NCBI RefSeq assembly: GCF_000014005.1
Contig: NC_008009.1
Span: 2,914,001-2,978,000 of the forward strand
DNA length: 64,000 nt
Direction: 5' to 3'
From: Candidatus Koribacter versatilis Ellin345
GTDB taxonomy: Bacteria > Acidobacteriota > Terriglobia > Terriglobales > Acidobacteriaceae
The first letter of the stretch is position 1; every line of letters begins with the position of its first letter. A model generated the notes under the pieces. The model was given only the letters and a program-made list of their open reading frames with translations. It made no database searches and was not told the origin of the DNA. A program made the translations under genes and the position numbers. This document shows, piece by piece, positions 41,460 to 46,274 of the stretch.

Positions 41460-42617
41460 CTAGAGAACTGAAATTGCCTGCTCCAGGTCAGTGATGAGGT
41501 CTTCCACGTCCTCAATGCCGACCGAGATGCGCACCATGCCATCGGTCAGTCCGATGGCCGCTCTTCCCTTTTCGCCCAGCGCAGCATGCGTCATTGTCGC
41601 CGGATGCGAGATCAACGTCTCCACTCCACCAAGCGATTCACCCAACGTGCAAACTTTCACTCGTTTCAAAAGCTTCTTCGCGTTGTTGAGCGATCCGGTT
41701 TCGAATGTGATGAGCGCGCCGAAGCCCGTCATCTGCTGCTTCGCGAGCTCGTGCTGCGGATGGTCTGGCAATCCCGGATAGAACACTTTCTTGATCTTCT
41801 TCTGCTTCGCGAGGAAATCGGCGACGACCCGCCCGCTCTCGTCATGCTGTTTCATGCGGACGGCAAGAGTCTTCACGCCGCGCAGAATCAGCCAACTTTC
41901 AAACGGCGACATGATCGCACCGACTGATTTTTGAATGAACGCCAGCTTCTCGGACTGCTCTTTCGTCGTGCAGACCAGCACACCGCCAAGTCCGTCGCTA
42001 TGGCCATTGAGGAATTTCGTCGTGGAGTGCAGCACCATGTCGGCGCCGAGGGCAATCGGCTTCTGAAAATACGGCGACATGAAGGTGTTATCGACAACAA
42101 CCTCGGTGCCCTTCTTGTGCGCGATCTGCGAGATGGCCTCGATGTCGCTCAGCACCATCAGAGGGTTCGTCGGCGTCTCGATGTAAACGTACTTCGTGCT
42201 CCTGCGGATCGCCTTCTCGGTCGCCTTCAGGTCCGACGTATCGACGTACGTAAACTCCAGCCCGTAATTCACCAGCACCTGGTTGAACAACCGCGGCACG
42301 CCACCATATACGTTCGACGAACAAACAACATGGTCGCCCTTCTTCAACAGCGAGCACATCGCGCTCACTGCCGCCATCCCGCTGGCAAAGACCTTGGAAT
42401 CTACGCCGCCCTCAAGCGCAGCGAGGTTTTTCTCCAACCGATCACGCGTTGGATTCGACACCCGCGAGTACTCATAGCCGAGACGCGGCTTGCCAAGTTC
42501 GTCCTGGGCGTATGTGGAGGTCGCGTAAATCGGAACACCGACGGAACCAGTCAGTTGCTCCGGTTCTTGCCCAACGTGAACACACTTCGTCGAAAACCCA
42601 GAATCTTTCTTGGCCAT
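41460..42617 (-). CDS. Cys/Met-metabolism PLP enzyme (cystathionine gamma-synthase or gamma-lyase type)
   Basis: This 385-residue PLP enzyme belongs to the trans-sulfuration family. The YEYSRVSNPTRDRLEKNLAA segment binds the cofactor phosphate of the partner subunit, TPTNPL carries the substrate-binding region, and the Schiff-base Lys is in HSTTKFLNGHSDGLGG. Sequence alone does not separate gamma-synthase, gamma-lyase and related activities. Downstream of a cysteine-synthase-like gene, a role in cystathionine metabolism is likely, either forward (to methionine) or reverse (to cysteine). Its 3' end is 2 bp from the convergent HD-GYP gene. Confidence 0.9.
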   Translation of the reverse strand: MAKKDSGFSTKCVHVGQEPEQLTGSVGVPIYATSTYAQDELGKPRLGYEYSRVSNPTRDRLEKNLAALEGGVDSKVFASGMAAVSAMCSLLKKGDHVVCSSNVYGGVPRLFNQVLVNYGLEFTYVDTSDLKATEKAIRRSTKYVYIETPTNPLMVLSDIEAISQIAHKKGTEVVVDNTFMSPYFQKPIALGADMVLHSTTKFLNGHSDGLGGVLVCTTKEQSEKLAFIQKSVGAIMSPFESWLILRGVKTLAVRMKQHDESGRVVADFLAKQKKIKKVFYPGLPDHPQHELAKQQMTGFGALITFETGSLNNAKKLLKRVKVCTLGESLGGVETLISHPATMTHAALGEKGRAAIGLTDGMVRISVGIEDVEDLITDLEQAISVL

Positions 42618-42655: not shown

Positions 42656-43603
42656 TTATTCGTTGAAGTGATACGGATCCTTAGACAGGTACCGCTCAGC
42701 CGAGTCCGGAATAATCGTGACGACCCGCTTCCCCGGCCCCAGGCGTTTTGCCAACTCTAAACTCGCAAACACTGCCGCTCCCGAGCTCGACCCCGCCAGT
42801 ACGCCTTCTTTGGCCGCCAGATCTTTGATTGTCCGGAACGCATCCACGTCTTTCACGGCGATCACTTCATCGCAAACGCTGCGATCGAAGGTTGCGGGAA
42901 TGAAGCTCGCGCCGATACCTTCTACGGCGTGCGGCCCGCTCTTGCCGCCGCCGTACACCGACGCCTGCGACTCCACCAGCACGCACAGCGTCTGCGGCGA
43001 CCGCTCCTTCAAGTAGCGCGCCACTCCCGTGAACGTCCCTGCCGTGCCTGCACCGAGTGCGATGGCATCAATCTTGCCGCCCATCTGTTCCCATAACTCG
43101 CGTCCGGTCGTCTCATAGTGGAAATCAGGATTCGCCTGGTTCTCGAACTGCCCTGCTAGCCACGAGTTCGGAATCTCGGTCAGGAATTTCTTGACGAGCC
43201 GGATTGCGCCTTCCATGCCTTCGGCGTCCGGCGTCCGATACACCTGAGCACCAAGAGCCTCCATCAGCATGACTTTCTCTTTGCTGAATTTCTGCGGGAC
43301 GGCGAGGACGACCTTGTATCCGCGGCTTACGCCGATCAGCGCCAAGCCGACGCCGGTGTTACCCGCTGTCGCCTCGAGAATCGTCGCGCCCGGCTTGAGC
43401 ACGCCTTCCTTTTCCGCGCGCAGGATCATGCCCAGGGCAGCGCGGTCTTTAATGCTTCCGCCCGGGTTAAGAAACTCGAGTTTTACGTAGATGTCGGCGA
43501 TCTCCGGCGGCACCATCTTGCGCAGGTGAAGCATCGGGGTCTGGCCAACGAGTTCAGAAATATCTTCGGCGACGCGGAGAGTGGACATCTCAGATGTATT
43601 CAT
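42656..43603 (-). CDS. cysteine synthase / cystathionine beta-synthase-like PLP enzyme
   Basis: This 315-residue fold-type-II PLP enzyme has its Schiff-base Lys in NPGGSIKDRAA, the phosphate loop GAGTAGTFTGVARYL and the late SSSGAAV motif. The substrate loop is TAGNTG rather than the TSGNTG of classical CysK, and the QFENQANPDFHYETTG stretch is conserved in the family. TAGNTG is a feature I associate with the B. subtilis MccA (YrhA) cystathionine beta-synthase group, so reverse trans-sulfuration with the downstream gene is a real alternative to cysteine synthase. Start is ATG 43603 or, five codons later, ATG 43588. Confidence 0.85.
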   Translation of the reverse strand: MNTSEMSTLRVAEDISELVGQTPMLHLRKMVPPEIADIYVKLEFLNPGGSIKDRAALGMILRAEKEGVLKPGATILEATAGNTGVGLALIGVSRGYKVVLAVPQKFSKEKVMLMEALGAQVYRTPDAEGMEGAIRLVKKFLTEIPNSWLAGQFENQANPDFHYETTGRELWEQMGGKIDAIALGAGTAGTFTGVARYLKERSPQTLCVLVESQASVYGGGKSGPHAVEGIGASFIPATFDRSVCDEVIAVKDVDAFRTIKDLAAKEGVLAGSSSGAAVFASLELAKRLGPGKRVVTIIPDSAERYLSKDPYHFNE

Positions 43604-43640
43604 AAGAAAAAGGCCAACCCTTCAGGCTATCGGGTCGGCC
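43604..43640 (-). terminator. intrinsic terminator/attenuator abutting the cysK-like start codon
   Basis: On the minus strand GGCCGACCC (43640-43632) pairs with GGGTTGGCC (43620-43612, one G-U pair) around an 11-nt loop, followed by TTTTTCTT at 43611-43604, directly against ATG 43603. It could end transcription of the upstream membrane-protein gene, or act as an attenuator in the cysK leader. No ribosome binding site fits between it and ATG 43603. Confidence 0.75.
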
Positions 43641-43673
43641 GCCGAATGGTCAACGAGCTTGTCACAACTTCCG

Positions 43674-44162
43674 CTAAGCAGACCGCCTTTGTACCTCTTC
43701 GCTTCCTGGGCGCGGGATCTCCACCACGCTCTCCGGATGCGGCAGCACTTCGCGGAGGGCCCAGTCAATCCGCTGGATCGAGTCGCGCGTGATCTTCTCC
43801 AGGTGCGGATCGTTCTTCGCGTACACCGACAAACTGATCGCTGTCAGGGCATTCCGAACGTGGTGGTTCATTTCGGCAATCATCCGCATCCGCGCTTCAT
43901 CGGCGCGCAAATGCGCATCATAGTGGCGCAGTCCTGCGCCAGTCACAATCGCCGTAATCACCCCGACAAACACATCCGACATCAACAGCGTGCGCTCGGT
44001 GGGCCCGGTGAGGCTGTCCATGGCAATCTGCACGATGAGCATCGCCGTGCCAATCAGCACGCCGGCCGCGATAGCGCGCACCACGCTATGACGGACCATG
44101 TTCCTTGGGTACACAAACAACGACATGTCGGGACGCCAGTAGCGTCTGCGCTCTGCGGTCAC
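43674..44162 (-). CDS. membrane protein with a histidine-kinase-like H-box but no ATPase domain
   Basis: This 162-residue protein starts at GTG 44162. Two transmembrane segments (VVRAIAAGVLIGTAMLIVQI and SDVFVGVITAIVTGAG) precede a cytosolic helical segment whose core MIAEMNHHVRNALTAISLS looks like a kinase dimerisation/phosphoacceptor helix; a second helix with ITRDSIQRIDWALREVL follows. No ATP-binding domain is present, so it cannot phosphorylate itself. It may accept phosphate from another kinase or act as a dimerisation partner. Confidence 0.75.
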   Translation of the reverse strand: MTAERRRYWRPDMSLFVYPRNMVRHSVVRAIAAGVLIGTAMLIVQIAMDSLTGPTERTLLMSDVFVGVITAIVTGAGLRHYDAHLRADEARMRMIAEMNHHVRNALTAISLSVYAKNDPHLEKITRDSIQRIDWALREVLPHPESVVEIPRPGSEEVQRRSA

Positions 44163-44294
44163 TTTCTTCCCCTGTGCGAATGGCGTCCCATGATGCTAAG
44201 GGTTGATCGAGTGTTTATCAACCCGTAAACAGAGCTGCTGCCGGAATTCTGTGGATTGAATCGCGCTTCATCCCAAACGCATCTGAAGTGCCAA

Positions 44295-45134
44295 ATGTCC
44301 AACCCAACTTCCAAAGTCTGGATGATCACCGGCGCTTCCCGTGGCTTCGGTGCAGAAATTGCCGCGGCTGCACTGGAGAGGGGCCATCGCGTTGTTGGGA
44401 CCGCGCGACGCGTTGATTCTCTTCCTGCGCCTGCGGGCCCGGAAAAATATCTCCGCGTGGCGCTCGATGTGACTTCTCGCGAGCAAGCCGAAAACGCAGT
44501 TTGCTCCGCGTGCGAATCCTTTGGTCAGATCGATGTGCTGGTGAACAACGCGGGCTACGGATTGTTGGGCTCCGTCGAAGAAACGAGCGCCGAAGAAATC
44601 GAGCGCCTCTTTCAGACGAACGTCTTCGGTCTTCTCCATGTCACTCGCGCCGTATTGCCCATCTTTCGCAAGCAACGCTCTGGACACATCATCAACATGT
44701 CATCGGTGGGTGGCTTCAGTGCACGCCCTGGATGGGGACCATACTCCGCGACAAAGTTCGCGGTGGAAGCACTCACCGAATCGCTGCACGCGGAACTTGC
44801 ACCACTCGGCATTCACGTGACCGCGGTCGAGCCGGGATCGTTTCGCACCGACTTCCTCGACACCACTTCGCTCGTCTCCACGAAGAACCGCATTCCGGAT
44901 TACGATTCGACCGTCGGCAAGATGCGCGAATTCGTGGTTGGACGTAGCGGTTTCCAGCCCGGCGATCCGAAGAAGCTTGCACAAGCGATTCTTCAACTCG
45001 CCGATCTCGCGGATCCACCGGTGCGGCTTCCTCTCGGAACCGATACCTTGCGCCGCATCGACGAAAAACAAGCGTTCGTAAAAGAAGAAACCGAGAGGTG
45101 GCGTACCCTCTCGGCTTCAACGGACTTCGTTTGA
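44295..45134 (+). CDS. short-chain dehydrogenase/reductase
   Basis: This 279-residue classical SDR has the cofactor motif TGASRGFG, followed by an Arg-rich strand end (TARR) favouring NADP, the NNAG motif in LVNNAGYGLLG, the catalytic Ser in MSSVGG and YSATK as the active-site Tyr-Lys. The substrate is unknown. ATG 44295 is chosen because it begins just before the first beta-strand; an earlier ATG at 44256 adds an unconserved tail. Its stop codon directly touches the stop codon of the convergent cytochrome gene. Confidence 0.9.
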   Translation: MSNPTSKVWMITGASRGFGAEIAAAALERGHRVVGTARRVDSLPAPAGPEKYLRVALDVTSREQAENAVCSACESFGQIDVLVNNAGYGLLGSVEETSAEEIERLFQTNVFGLLHVTRAVLPIFRKQRSGHIINMSSVGGFSARPGWGPYSATKFAVEALTESLHAELAPLGIHVTAVEPGSFRTDFLDTTSLVSTKNRIPDYDSTVGKMREFVVGRSGFQPGDPKKLAQAILQLADLADPPVRLPLGTDTLRRIDEKQAFVKEETERWRTLSASTDFV

Positions 45135-46274
45135 TTAGTGCGCAGCCGCCGCCGGTGCTTCCGGCTTCTGGAAGGTCTTCGCGTCAATCGGCGCGTTCAC
45201 CTGCACCGAATCCACTTTCATGGTGAACCGTCCCAGCGGTCGTGCGATCGTCCACTCGAATGGGATCTTCGCGCCGCTCTGGTCGCGATAATCTGCGAAG
45301 TCCACCTGTGTCGGGTTACGACCCAGCGGCGTATCGGCATAGCGCACCATGCGCACCAGCAGGCCGCTTTGCTTGTCGAAGAACAACGTAACCGGCGCCT
45401 GCCCGGGGTTCTTGCCAATCACAACGTTCATCTCTTTCCCGTTGATCGTATCGGCCTGCACCGTACGAATCTCGGCGAAGGCTTTACGCGGATCGCTCGG
45501 CACCAGGAACTGCGCATCGAGCTTCGCGGCATACTGCTCGTCTCCGTTCATCGGCCGTAGCGGACGCCCCGGGAACGATAGCCAGCCGTCTTCGCCGTTG
45601 TAGGCTGTCACGCTGTCCTTGTCGCCCATATGCGCCACCGACACGCGGCGGACGGGCGTCTCTTCGAAAATCTCCACGGAAACAGCGCGCCCCGGTCCCA
45701 TCCCCATGTTCGCCTTTTCTGTCACCGACTTCAGCTTCGCAATCGCGTCGGCACCGCCAACGGCCTTCAAATAGGCGTTGATGATCGGATCGGCCGAACC
45801 CCGTTCGGCGTTGTGCTCGTGGTGCTGCTTCTCCATCTCCTCGGTGCTGACCGCCGCCTTCGCTTGCTCCGGAATCTCCGGCACTCCCCGCGGATGCGGC
45901 GTACCGCGATGGCAAGTGTTGCAGCTCACTTCCTTCTTGCCCTCGAAGTTTTCCTGGTTGATGGTGATCATCATCGCCATCATTTTGCGCGCGGTTTTCT
46001 TCTCTTCCTTGTCGTCCTTATCGAACGCGCCTTCCACATGGCAGAAGTCGCATTCCACACCCAATGAGTTCGCAATGAACTGCATGGACGGAATCAACTG
46101 GTCGGCGGGAATGTCCTTGAGGACCTGAATGTTCTTGAACTGCTGTACGGCGGTCTTTGTCCCCCCGCCTTGTGGCGCCTGCGCGGGCCGCGCGGCGATC
46201 AATACAGACGCGGCGACGAGTACTCCGGATGCGACGGCGGAGAAGCGCACCATTGCGCCTCGATTCAATGTCAT
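45135..46274 (-). CDS. dihaem cytochrome c, reaction-centre cytochrome subunit-like
   Basis: This 379-residue exported protein has a signal peptide and two CxxCH haem sites, CDFCH and CNTCH, within about 50 residues. The first domain (IPADQLIPSMQFIANSLGVE, then CDFCH) resembles the cytochrome c subunit of photosynthetic reaction centres, a family widespread in Acidobacteria with no photosynthesis genes. The second half, about 220 residues, is beta-rich and resembles outer-membrane lipoprotein-like domains (GEDGWLSFPGRPLRPMNGD). It probably shuttles electrons in the periplasm. Partner and physiological role are unknown. Confidence 0.85.
   Translation of the reverse strand: MTLNRGAMVRFSAVASGVLVAASVLIAARPAQAPQGGGTKTAVQQFKNIQVLKDIPADQLIPSMQFIANSLGVECDFCHVEGAFDKDDKEEKKTARKMMAMMITINQENFEGKKEVSCNTCHRGTPHPRGVPEIPEQAKAAVSTEEMEKQHHEHNAERGSADPIINAYLKAVGGADAIAKLKSVTEKANMGMGPGRAVSVEIFEETPVRRVSVAHMGDKDSVTAYNGEDGWLSFPGRPLRPMNGDEQYAAKLDAQFLVPSDPRKAFAEIRTVQADTINGKEMNVVIGKNPGQAPVTLFFDKQSGLLVRMVRYADTPLGRNPTQVDFADYRDQSGAKIPFEWTIARPLGRFTMKVDSVQVNAPIDAKTFQKPEAPAAAAH

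Follow-up and report, generated by a model that had tools for sequence, protein, structure and literature searches.

Positions 43653-43604 on the minus strand of the 64,000-nucleotide stretch of DNA analysed here (the window) very probably form the promoter and the very short leader of a cysK-like gene, and the terminator-like hairpin lying across them is either a by-product of these sequences or a secondary terminator at the level of the genus, and is very unlikely to be an attenuator. A preliminary description of the region had offered two readings of the hairpin: attenuation of transcripts from upstream in response to a sulfur metabolite, or translation from ATG 43588 with a promoter inside the region. 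The internal promoter gained support from its conservation across the family; the other elements of these readings fared worse, as described below. The elements are as follows, G001 being the sole other genus member compared (its cysK-like protein is 90% identical).

43648..43653, minus strand: -35 element TTGACC, kept in G001
43630..43647, minus strand: promoter spacer of 18 nt, containing the left arm of the hairpin
43640-43632, minus strand: hairpin left arm GGCCGACCC, 9 nt (TCGTTACCC at the same place in G001)
43631-43621, minus strand: hairpin loop GATAGCCTGAA, 11 nt
43624..43629, minus strand: -10 element TAGCCT, inside the hairpin loop
43620-43612, minus strand: hairpin right arm GGGTTGGCC, identical in G001
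43611-43604, minus strand: T-run TTTTTCTT, abutting ATG 43603-43601 (TTTTCCTT in G001)
43604..43618, minus strand: predicted 5' leader of 13-15 nt, T-rich and without a Shine-Dalgarno sequence, for a transcription start predicted at 43618-43616

The hairpin itself is real. Its stem consists of nine pairs, seven of them G-C and one G-U, and the T-run TTTTTCTT follows immediately 3' of the stem, as in an intrinsic terminator. The 37-nt hairpin folded at -18.4 kcal/mol (z -4.1), a stability that none of 200 shuffles equalled, while three longer pieces around it were less striking when folded against shuffles (z -0.7 to -1.4). An intrinsic terminator combines a stable GC-rich stem with a short loop; the loop here has 11 nt, and a generic terminator scan limited to loops of 8 nt or fewer did not report the hairpin for that reason. 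The initial observation of a 9-bp stem with a T-run ending at 43604, next to ATG 43603, was therefore borne out by both sequence and folding.

A promoter of the sigma-70 type, TTGACC-N18-TAGCCT, occupies 43653-43624 of the minus strand and shares part of this stretch with the hairpin; its -35 and -10 hexamers are separated by 18 nt, within the 16-18 nt expected of this class, and the -10 box TAGCCT agrees with TATAAT at three of six positions. A generic scan of the sequence did not list this promoter. The left arm of the hairpin falls within the spacer's 3' half, and the -10 box lies within the loop. Transcription usually begins 6-8 nt from the -10 box, and we therefore place the start at 43618-43616. 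The predicted leader is then GTTGGCCTTTTTCTT or 1-2 nt shorter; reading it by eye revealed no Shine-Dalgarno sequence, in agreement with the earlier remark that the hairpin leaves no room for a ribosome binding site. Since the -10 box is 20 nt from the ATG, in this genome as in G001, the gene here would have a short leader and not be strictly leaderless, a layout that puts the end of the -10 box some 5-8 nt ahead of the start codon. An mRNA begun at this promoter lacks the left arm, and the hairpin cannot form in it; counted from the predicted starts, the first 73-75 nt folded at about -10 kcal/mol with other pairings. The hairpin could be formed only by transcripts arriving from upstream.

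To follow the promoter through the family, we took the 118 of 150 family genomes in which an ortholog of the cysK-like gene was located with E no higher than 1e-90, and upstream sequence was read for 117 of these orthologs (42 search loci and 75 stretches of at most 500 nt), a truncated copy in G122 being left out of the set. The main counts refer to 115 orthologs, with two further rows (G094 and G041) added separately, and cover the last 130 nt before the start of the match plus 15 nt. The pair TTGAC-N-(16-18)-TAnnnT occurred in 67 of the 115 orthologs, representing 41 of 65 genera, as against a mean of 0.32 of 115 (maximum 3 in 50 rounds) in dinucleotide shuffles, and in none of 113 at 131-275 nt upstream. 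Both added rows carry it, which raises the count to 69 of 117 orthologs and 43 of 67 genera. A looser count, requiring at least five of six matches to TTGACG, a hexamer picked after looking at the sequences, gave 68 of 115, compared with 1.8 in shuffles and four on the other strand. Elements, spacing, position and conservation are thus matters of direct comparison among the sequences.

The 68 scored promoters are uniform. The spacing is 17 nt in 34, 18 nt in 33 and 16 nt in one; the commonest -10 boxes are TACCCT (29), TACTCT (14) and TAACCT (11), and all 68 aligned promoters read TAnnCT, with C at the fifth base although the scan left that position free. In 57 of the 68 the first in-frame start codon lies 2-13 nt after the -10 box, and in 38 a candidate GTG stands exactly 5 nt past it, 10 of these 38 also having an in-frame ATG within 14 nt. 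These distances suggest that the relatives' genes with a start 2-13 nt after the -10 box are leaderless or have short leaders.

The TTGAC/TAnnnT pair is missing in 48 of the 117 orthologs. Among 47 orthologs without it (of the 115), TAnnnT stands 4-26 nt before an in-frame ATG or GTG in 32, versus 10.7 in shuffles (maximum 17), and is absent there in 15; the narrower TAnnCT was found in this position in 28 of 47, versus 3.5 in shuffles (maximum 10). Many of these orthologs may accordingly rely on a -10 box with no good -35 box ahead of it. In orthologs that lack a good -35 box (L111, L120, L124, L128-L132, L137 and L138), the ATG is often preceded by TGCTACACT or CCTGATAGACT together with a short T-rich leader. 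Several other genera also combine a -10 box with a short T-rich leader before the ATG, for example gagaggttttgtt or agtcggttctttt, of similar length and with no hairpin, so that the T-run before the cysK-like gene needs no terminator to explain it. Comparing the cysK leaders of relatives, as had been proposed at the outset, thus upheld the promoter and not the hairpin, which is not conserved outside the genus.

In other genera the promoter is extended. The pattern TTGAC-N(12-13)-TTCCGTAnYCTGTA had 15 matches in 14 of the 150 family genomes, all directly before the cysK-like gene (L178-L192), and the reversed pattern, run on the 150 genomes as a control, gave none among the matches listed; this genome has no match to the strict pattern. 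In this extended form TTCCG precedes the -10 box and GTA follows it, and 14 of the 15 extended promoters have GTG at 5 nt. One genome (G010) has the cysK start region twice, once on contig C135 and once on C142 (L187 and L192), with the same promoter and slightly different coding sequence. The conservation of spacer bases exceeds the needs of a plain promoter and may reflect a regulator site. A more elaborate proposal, which we consider unlikely, would join two ideas: that in this genus one 50-bp stretch serves as both the cysK promoter and the terminator of the preceding gene, the terminator being kept despite a replaced left arm, and that the extended promoter of the other genera holds the site of an undescribed cysteine regulator.

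The arrangement is rare within this genome. In a 464-kb sample, the full TTGAC/TAnnnT arrangement preceded one of 317 called ORFs, the cysK one, and it stood before 6 of 27,805 ATG or GTG codons on both strands; a general leaderless layout was thus not seen for the full pair. By word counts that rest on crude ORF calling by length, TAnnnT alone was commoner than in the genome at large across most of the 45 nt ahead of first ATGs, with no clear leaderless peak, and Shine-Dalgarno words peaked clearly at gaps of 4-11 nt. In the excerpted text of a published survey, leaderless genes were inferred in all three Acidobacteria covered, at 9.7-19.4% of genes (mean 13.3%; PMC3160421). The excerpts returned by our literature search contained nothing evidently on a leaderless cysK promoter of this kind.

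The gene served by the promoter and its neighbours on the same strand are as follows.

42656..43603, minus strand: cysK-like gene, 315 aa, start ATG 43603, TIGR01139, Pfam PALP
41460..42617, minus strand: cystathionine gamma-synthase/lyase family gene, Pfam Cys_Met_Meta_PP (500.8 bits), 38 bp after the cysK-like gene
43674..44162, minus strand: upstream gene, 162 aa, with its stop codon 33 nt before the hairpin

The cysK-like gene encodes a PALP enzyme by Pfam and scored 352.9 bits with the NCBIfam model TIGR01139 (cysteine synthase A), whose cut-off is 350.95; the genome holds a second cysK-like gene, 42% identical. In an alignment of N-termini, the beginning MKT-E---LRVAED that many relatives share lines up with ATG 43603. 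This alignment ruled out ATG 43588, the start suggested in the preliminary description. The Met at ATG 43588 is kept in G001, G130, G154 and G079; the closest relatives retain it, and it is replaced by another residue in other relatives. The downstream gene, for which no NCBIfam model reached its cut-off among the best 25 of 45, is probably an operon partner of the cysK-like gene. The upstream 162-aa protein resembles HisKA weakly, below the cut-off, and by eye has an apparent membrane part. A relative with 63% identity precedes cysK in G001, and no further relative was found before cysK in the other loci, 75 of which cover only about 350 nt upstream. Further upstream, a strong 12-bp hairpin with a T-rich tail (45118-45087, minus strand), typical of a terminator, lies 16 nt after a cytochrome gene (45135-46274, minus strand) and overlaps the end of a convergent ORF (44256-45134, plus strand), presumably a short-chain dehydrogenase.

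Taken together, these observations suggest the following scheme, in which start site, sigma factor, leader length and mode of translation are predictions from the sequence. RNA polymerase with a housekeeping sigma factor would bind TTGACC-N18-TAGCCT and begin transcription near 43618-43616, inside the right arm of the hairpin. The resulting cysK mRNA, with a 13-15-nt leader and no Shine-Dalgarno sequence, would be translated from ATG 43603. Relatives would use the same promoter with a start codon that is often still closer, giving leaderless GTG or ATG genes. The hairpin would lie outside the main cysK mRNA and would not attenuate cysK; it would arise incidentally from the promoter and leader sequence or would, in this genus, act as a secondary terminator on transcripts coming from the upstream gene.

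What the hairpin does is a separate question, and the two leading answers concern the hairpin only and are both compatible with the promoter. We scanned the last 90 nt of the 115 orthologs for stems of at least 7 bp with a loop of up to 12 nt and a T-run. Such a hairpin was found in only two, this genome and G114, and not in the other 113. The G114 hairpin encloses its own -10 box and ends in a T-run abutting the ATG; with 7 bp, of which three are G-U, it folds weakly (-7.6 kcal/mol), and it is absent from G056, a genus-mate with the same -10 box and leader. Folding of 68 orthologous promoter stretches gave a mean z of -0.16, with no conserved structure. From the stem scan of 115 and the folding of 68, an RNA structure conserved in the family was rejected. 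The two genus members were the most stable of the 68 stretches (z -3.6 and -2.6), followed by the unrelated G135 at -2.55.

G001 keeps TTGACC and 28 consecutive bases (43635-43608) that comprise the -10 box, the right arm and most of the T-run; the first five left-arm bases are not kept. Its left arm retains four of the nine in-register pairs, and the corresponding 37 nt folded at -5.8 kcal/mol. We had considered the hairpin wholly lost in G001; this was rejected when folding of 60 nt gave a longer alternative hairpin, in which the same right arm pairs with bases of the -35 box and the spacer (-16.7 kcal/mol, z -2.4 to -2.7). The alternative pairing could be either a coincidence, most bases being shared, or the outcome of selection for a terminator in this genus, and because of it we kept a genus-specific terminator as a live rival.

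We put at somewhat better than even the chance that the hairpin is a functionless product of promoter and leader sequence. Its absence from 113 of 115 orthologs, the near-zero mean z over the 68 stretches, and the weak G114 stem missing in G056, which indicates that such hairpins come and go, all fit this reading. So does the abundance of similar elements. In the 464-kb sample, which includes the window and was searched on both strands for stems of at least 8 bp with a T-rich tail, there were 128 such stems, so that hairpins of this kind are not rare; 83 of them do not lie just after a called ORF end, and some will precede start codons by chance. Against a chance origin stand the z of -4.1 of the isolated hairpin and the fact that both genus members fold better than most shuffles.

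The other possibility, which we hold tentatively and at rather less than even, is that the hairpin works as an intrinsic terminator for the upstream gene (43674-44162), placed on the cysK promoter in this genus and shielding it from read-through. It lies on the same strand as the upstream gene, 33 nt past the stop codon, the upstream gene is present in both genus members, the two promoter stretches rank first and second of 68 for folding, and in the two genomes one and the same right arm and T-run pair with left arms that differ. The loop argues in the other direction: among the 45 hairpins that closely follow ORF ends the loop measures 3-9 nt and never exceeds 9, whereas loops of 10-12 nt occur in 21 of the 83 elsewhere, a class in which the cysK hairpin itself was tallied, the crude ORF caller having apparently chosen an antisense ORF in place of the upstream gene. 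Moreover, the G001 structure is longer and bulged with G-U pairs, other genera have short T-rich leaders with no hairpin, and the z-scores come from only two genomes that share most of the sequence and are not independent, with the unrelated G135 close behind.

Far less probable than either is an attenuator or a riboswitch of a new kind controlling cysK through read-through from an upstream start: a terminator-like element does stand directly before a sulfur gene that has no Shine-Dalgarno sequence, but there is no Rfam match and no conserved structure in the family, the predicted start lies inside the hairpin, and only 33 nt separate the upstream stop codon from the hairpin. At gathering scores, Rfam found no family in the whole 64-kb window; with E up to 10, the sole matches in positions 43450-43850, to ctRNA_p42d (E 0.72) and to sX14 (E 1.3), fell far short of the respective cut-offs. 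A conserved structured leader, the mark of a riboswitch, was thus found neither with Rfam nor in the 68 promoter stretches. The preliminary description had recognised no SAM riboswitch class and suggested a covariance search; the search agreed, with only noise-level matches near the hairpin. Sulfur-responsive attenuation therefore received no support from Rfam, from family structure or from the predicted start in the right arm, and a sulfur-sensing switch is very unlikely. The excerpts from the literature search likewise held nothing combining riboswitch, cysK and Acidobacteria. A transcription start downstream of a hairpin that merely ends the upstream gene had been named as the finding that would tell against attenuation; the predicted start comes near to this, falling within the hairpin and not downstream of it; the hairpin, for its part, possibly ends the upstream gene.

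We thus regard the region as a promoter of ordinary type, well conserved and followed by a short leader, on which a hairpin is superimposed in one genus, either by chance or as a secondary terminator. This removes a false riboswitch candidate and exposes a general trap, in that a terminator-like hairpin at a start codon can be made up of a promoter spacer, a -10 box and a T-rich leader. As a by-product, the analysis yielded a promoter of cysK-like genes conserved in 43 of the 67 genera examined in one Acidobacteriota family, with leaderless-type starts in many, and the start site and regulation of cysteine synthesis in this group become directly testable.

Transcription attenuators and SAM-type riboswitches are a class of sulfur-gene control. 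As in these systems, a terminator-like hairpin precedes a sulfur-metabolism gene here; unlike them, the region has no conserved structured leader and no Rfam match, and the promoter lies inside the hairpin. With intrinsic (Rho-independent) terminators it shares a GC-rich stem, a T-run behind that stem and a place 33 nt past the upstream stop codon, but it differs in its 11-nt loop, in overlapping a conserved promoter and in its lack of conservation outside the genus. The region also resembles the leaderless and short-leader genes characterised in the excerpts from PMC3160421, in which a TANNNT -10 box stands some 12 nt ahead of the start codon and there is no Shine-Dalgarno sequence: a close -10 box without a Shine-Dalgarno sequence is found here too, whereas the distance from the -10 box to the ATG is 20 nt, for an expected leader of about 13-15 nt, and a -35 box is kept in the cysK family as well, many of whose members carry extra bases on either side of the -10 box, TTCCG upstream and GTA downstream.
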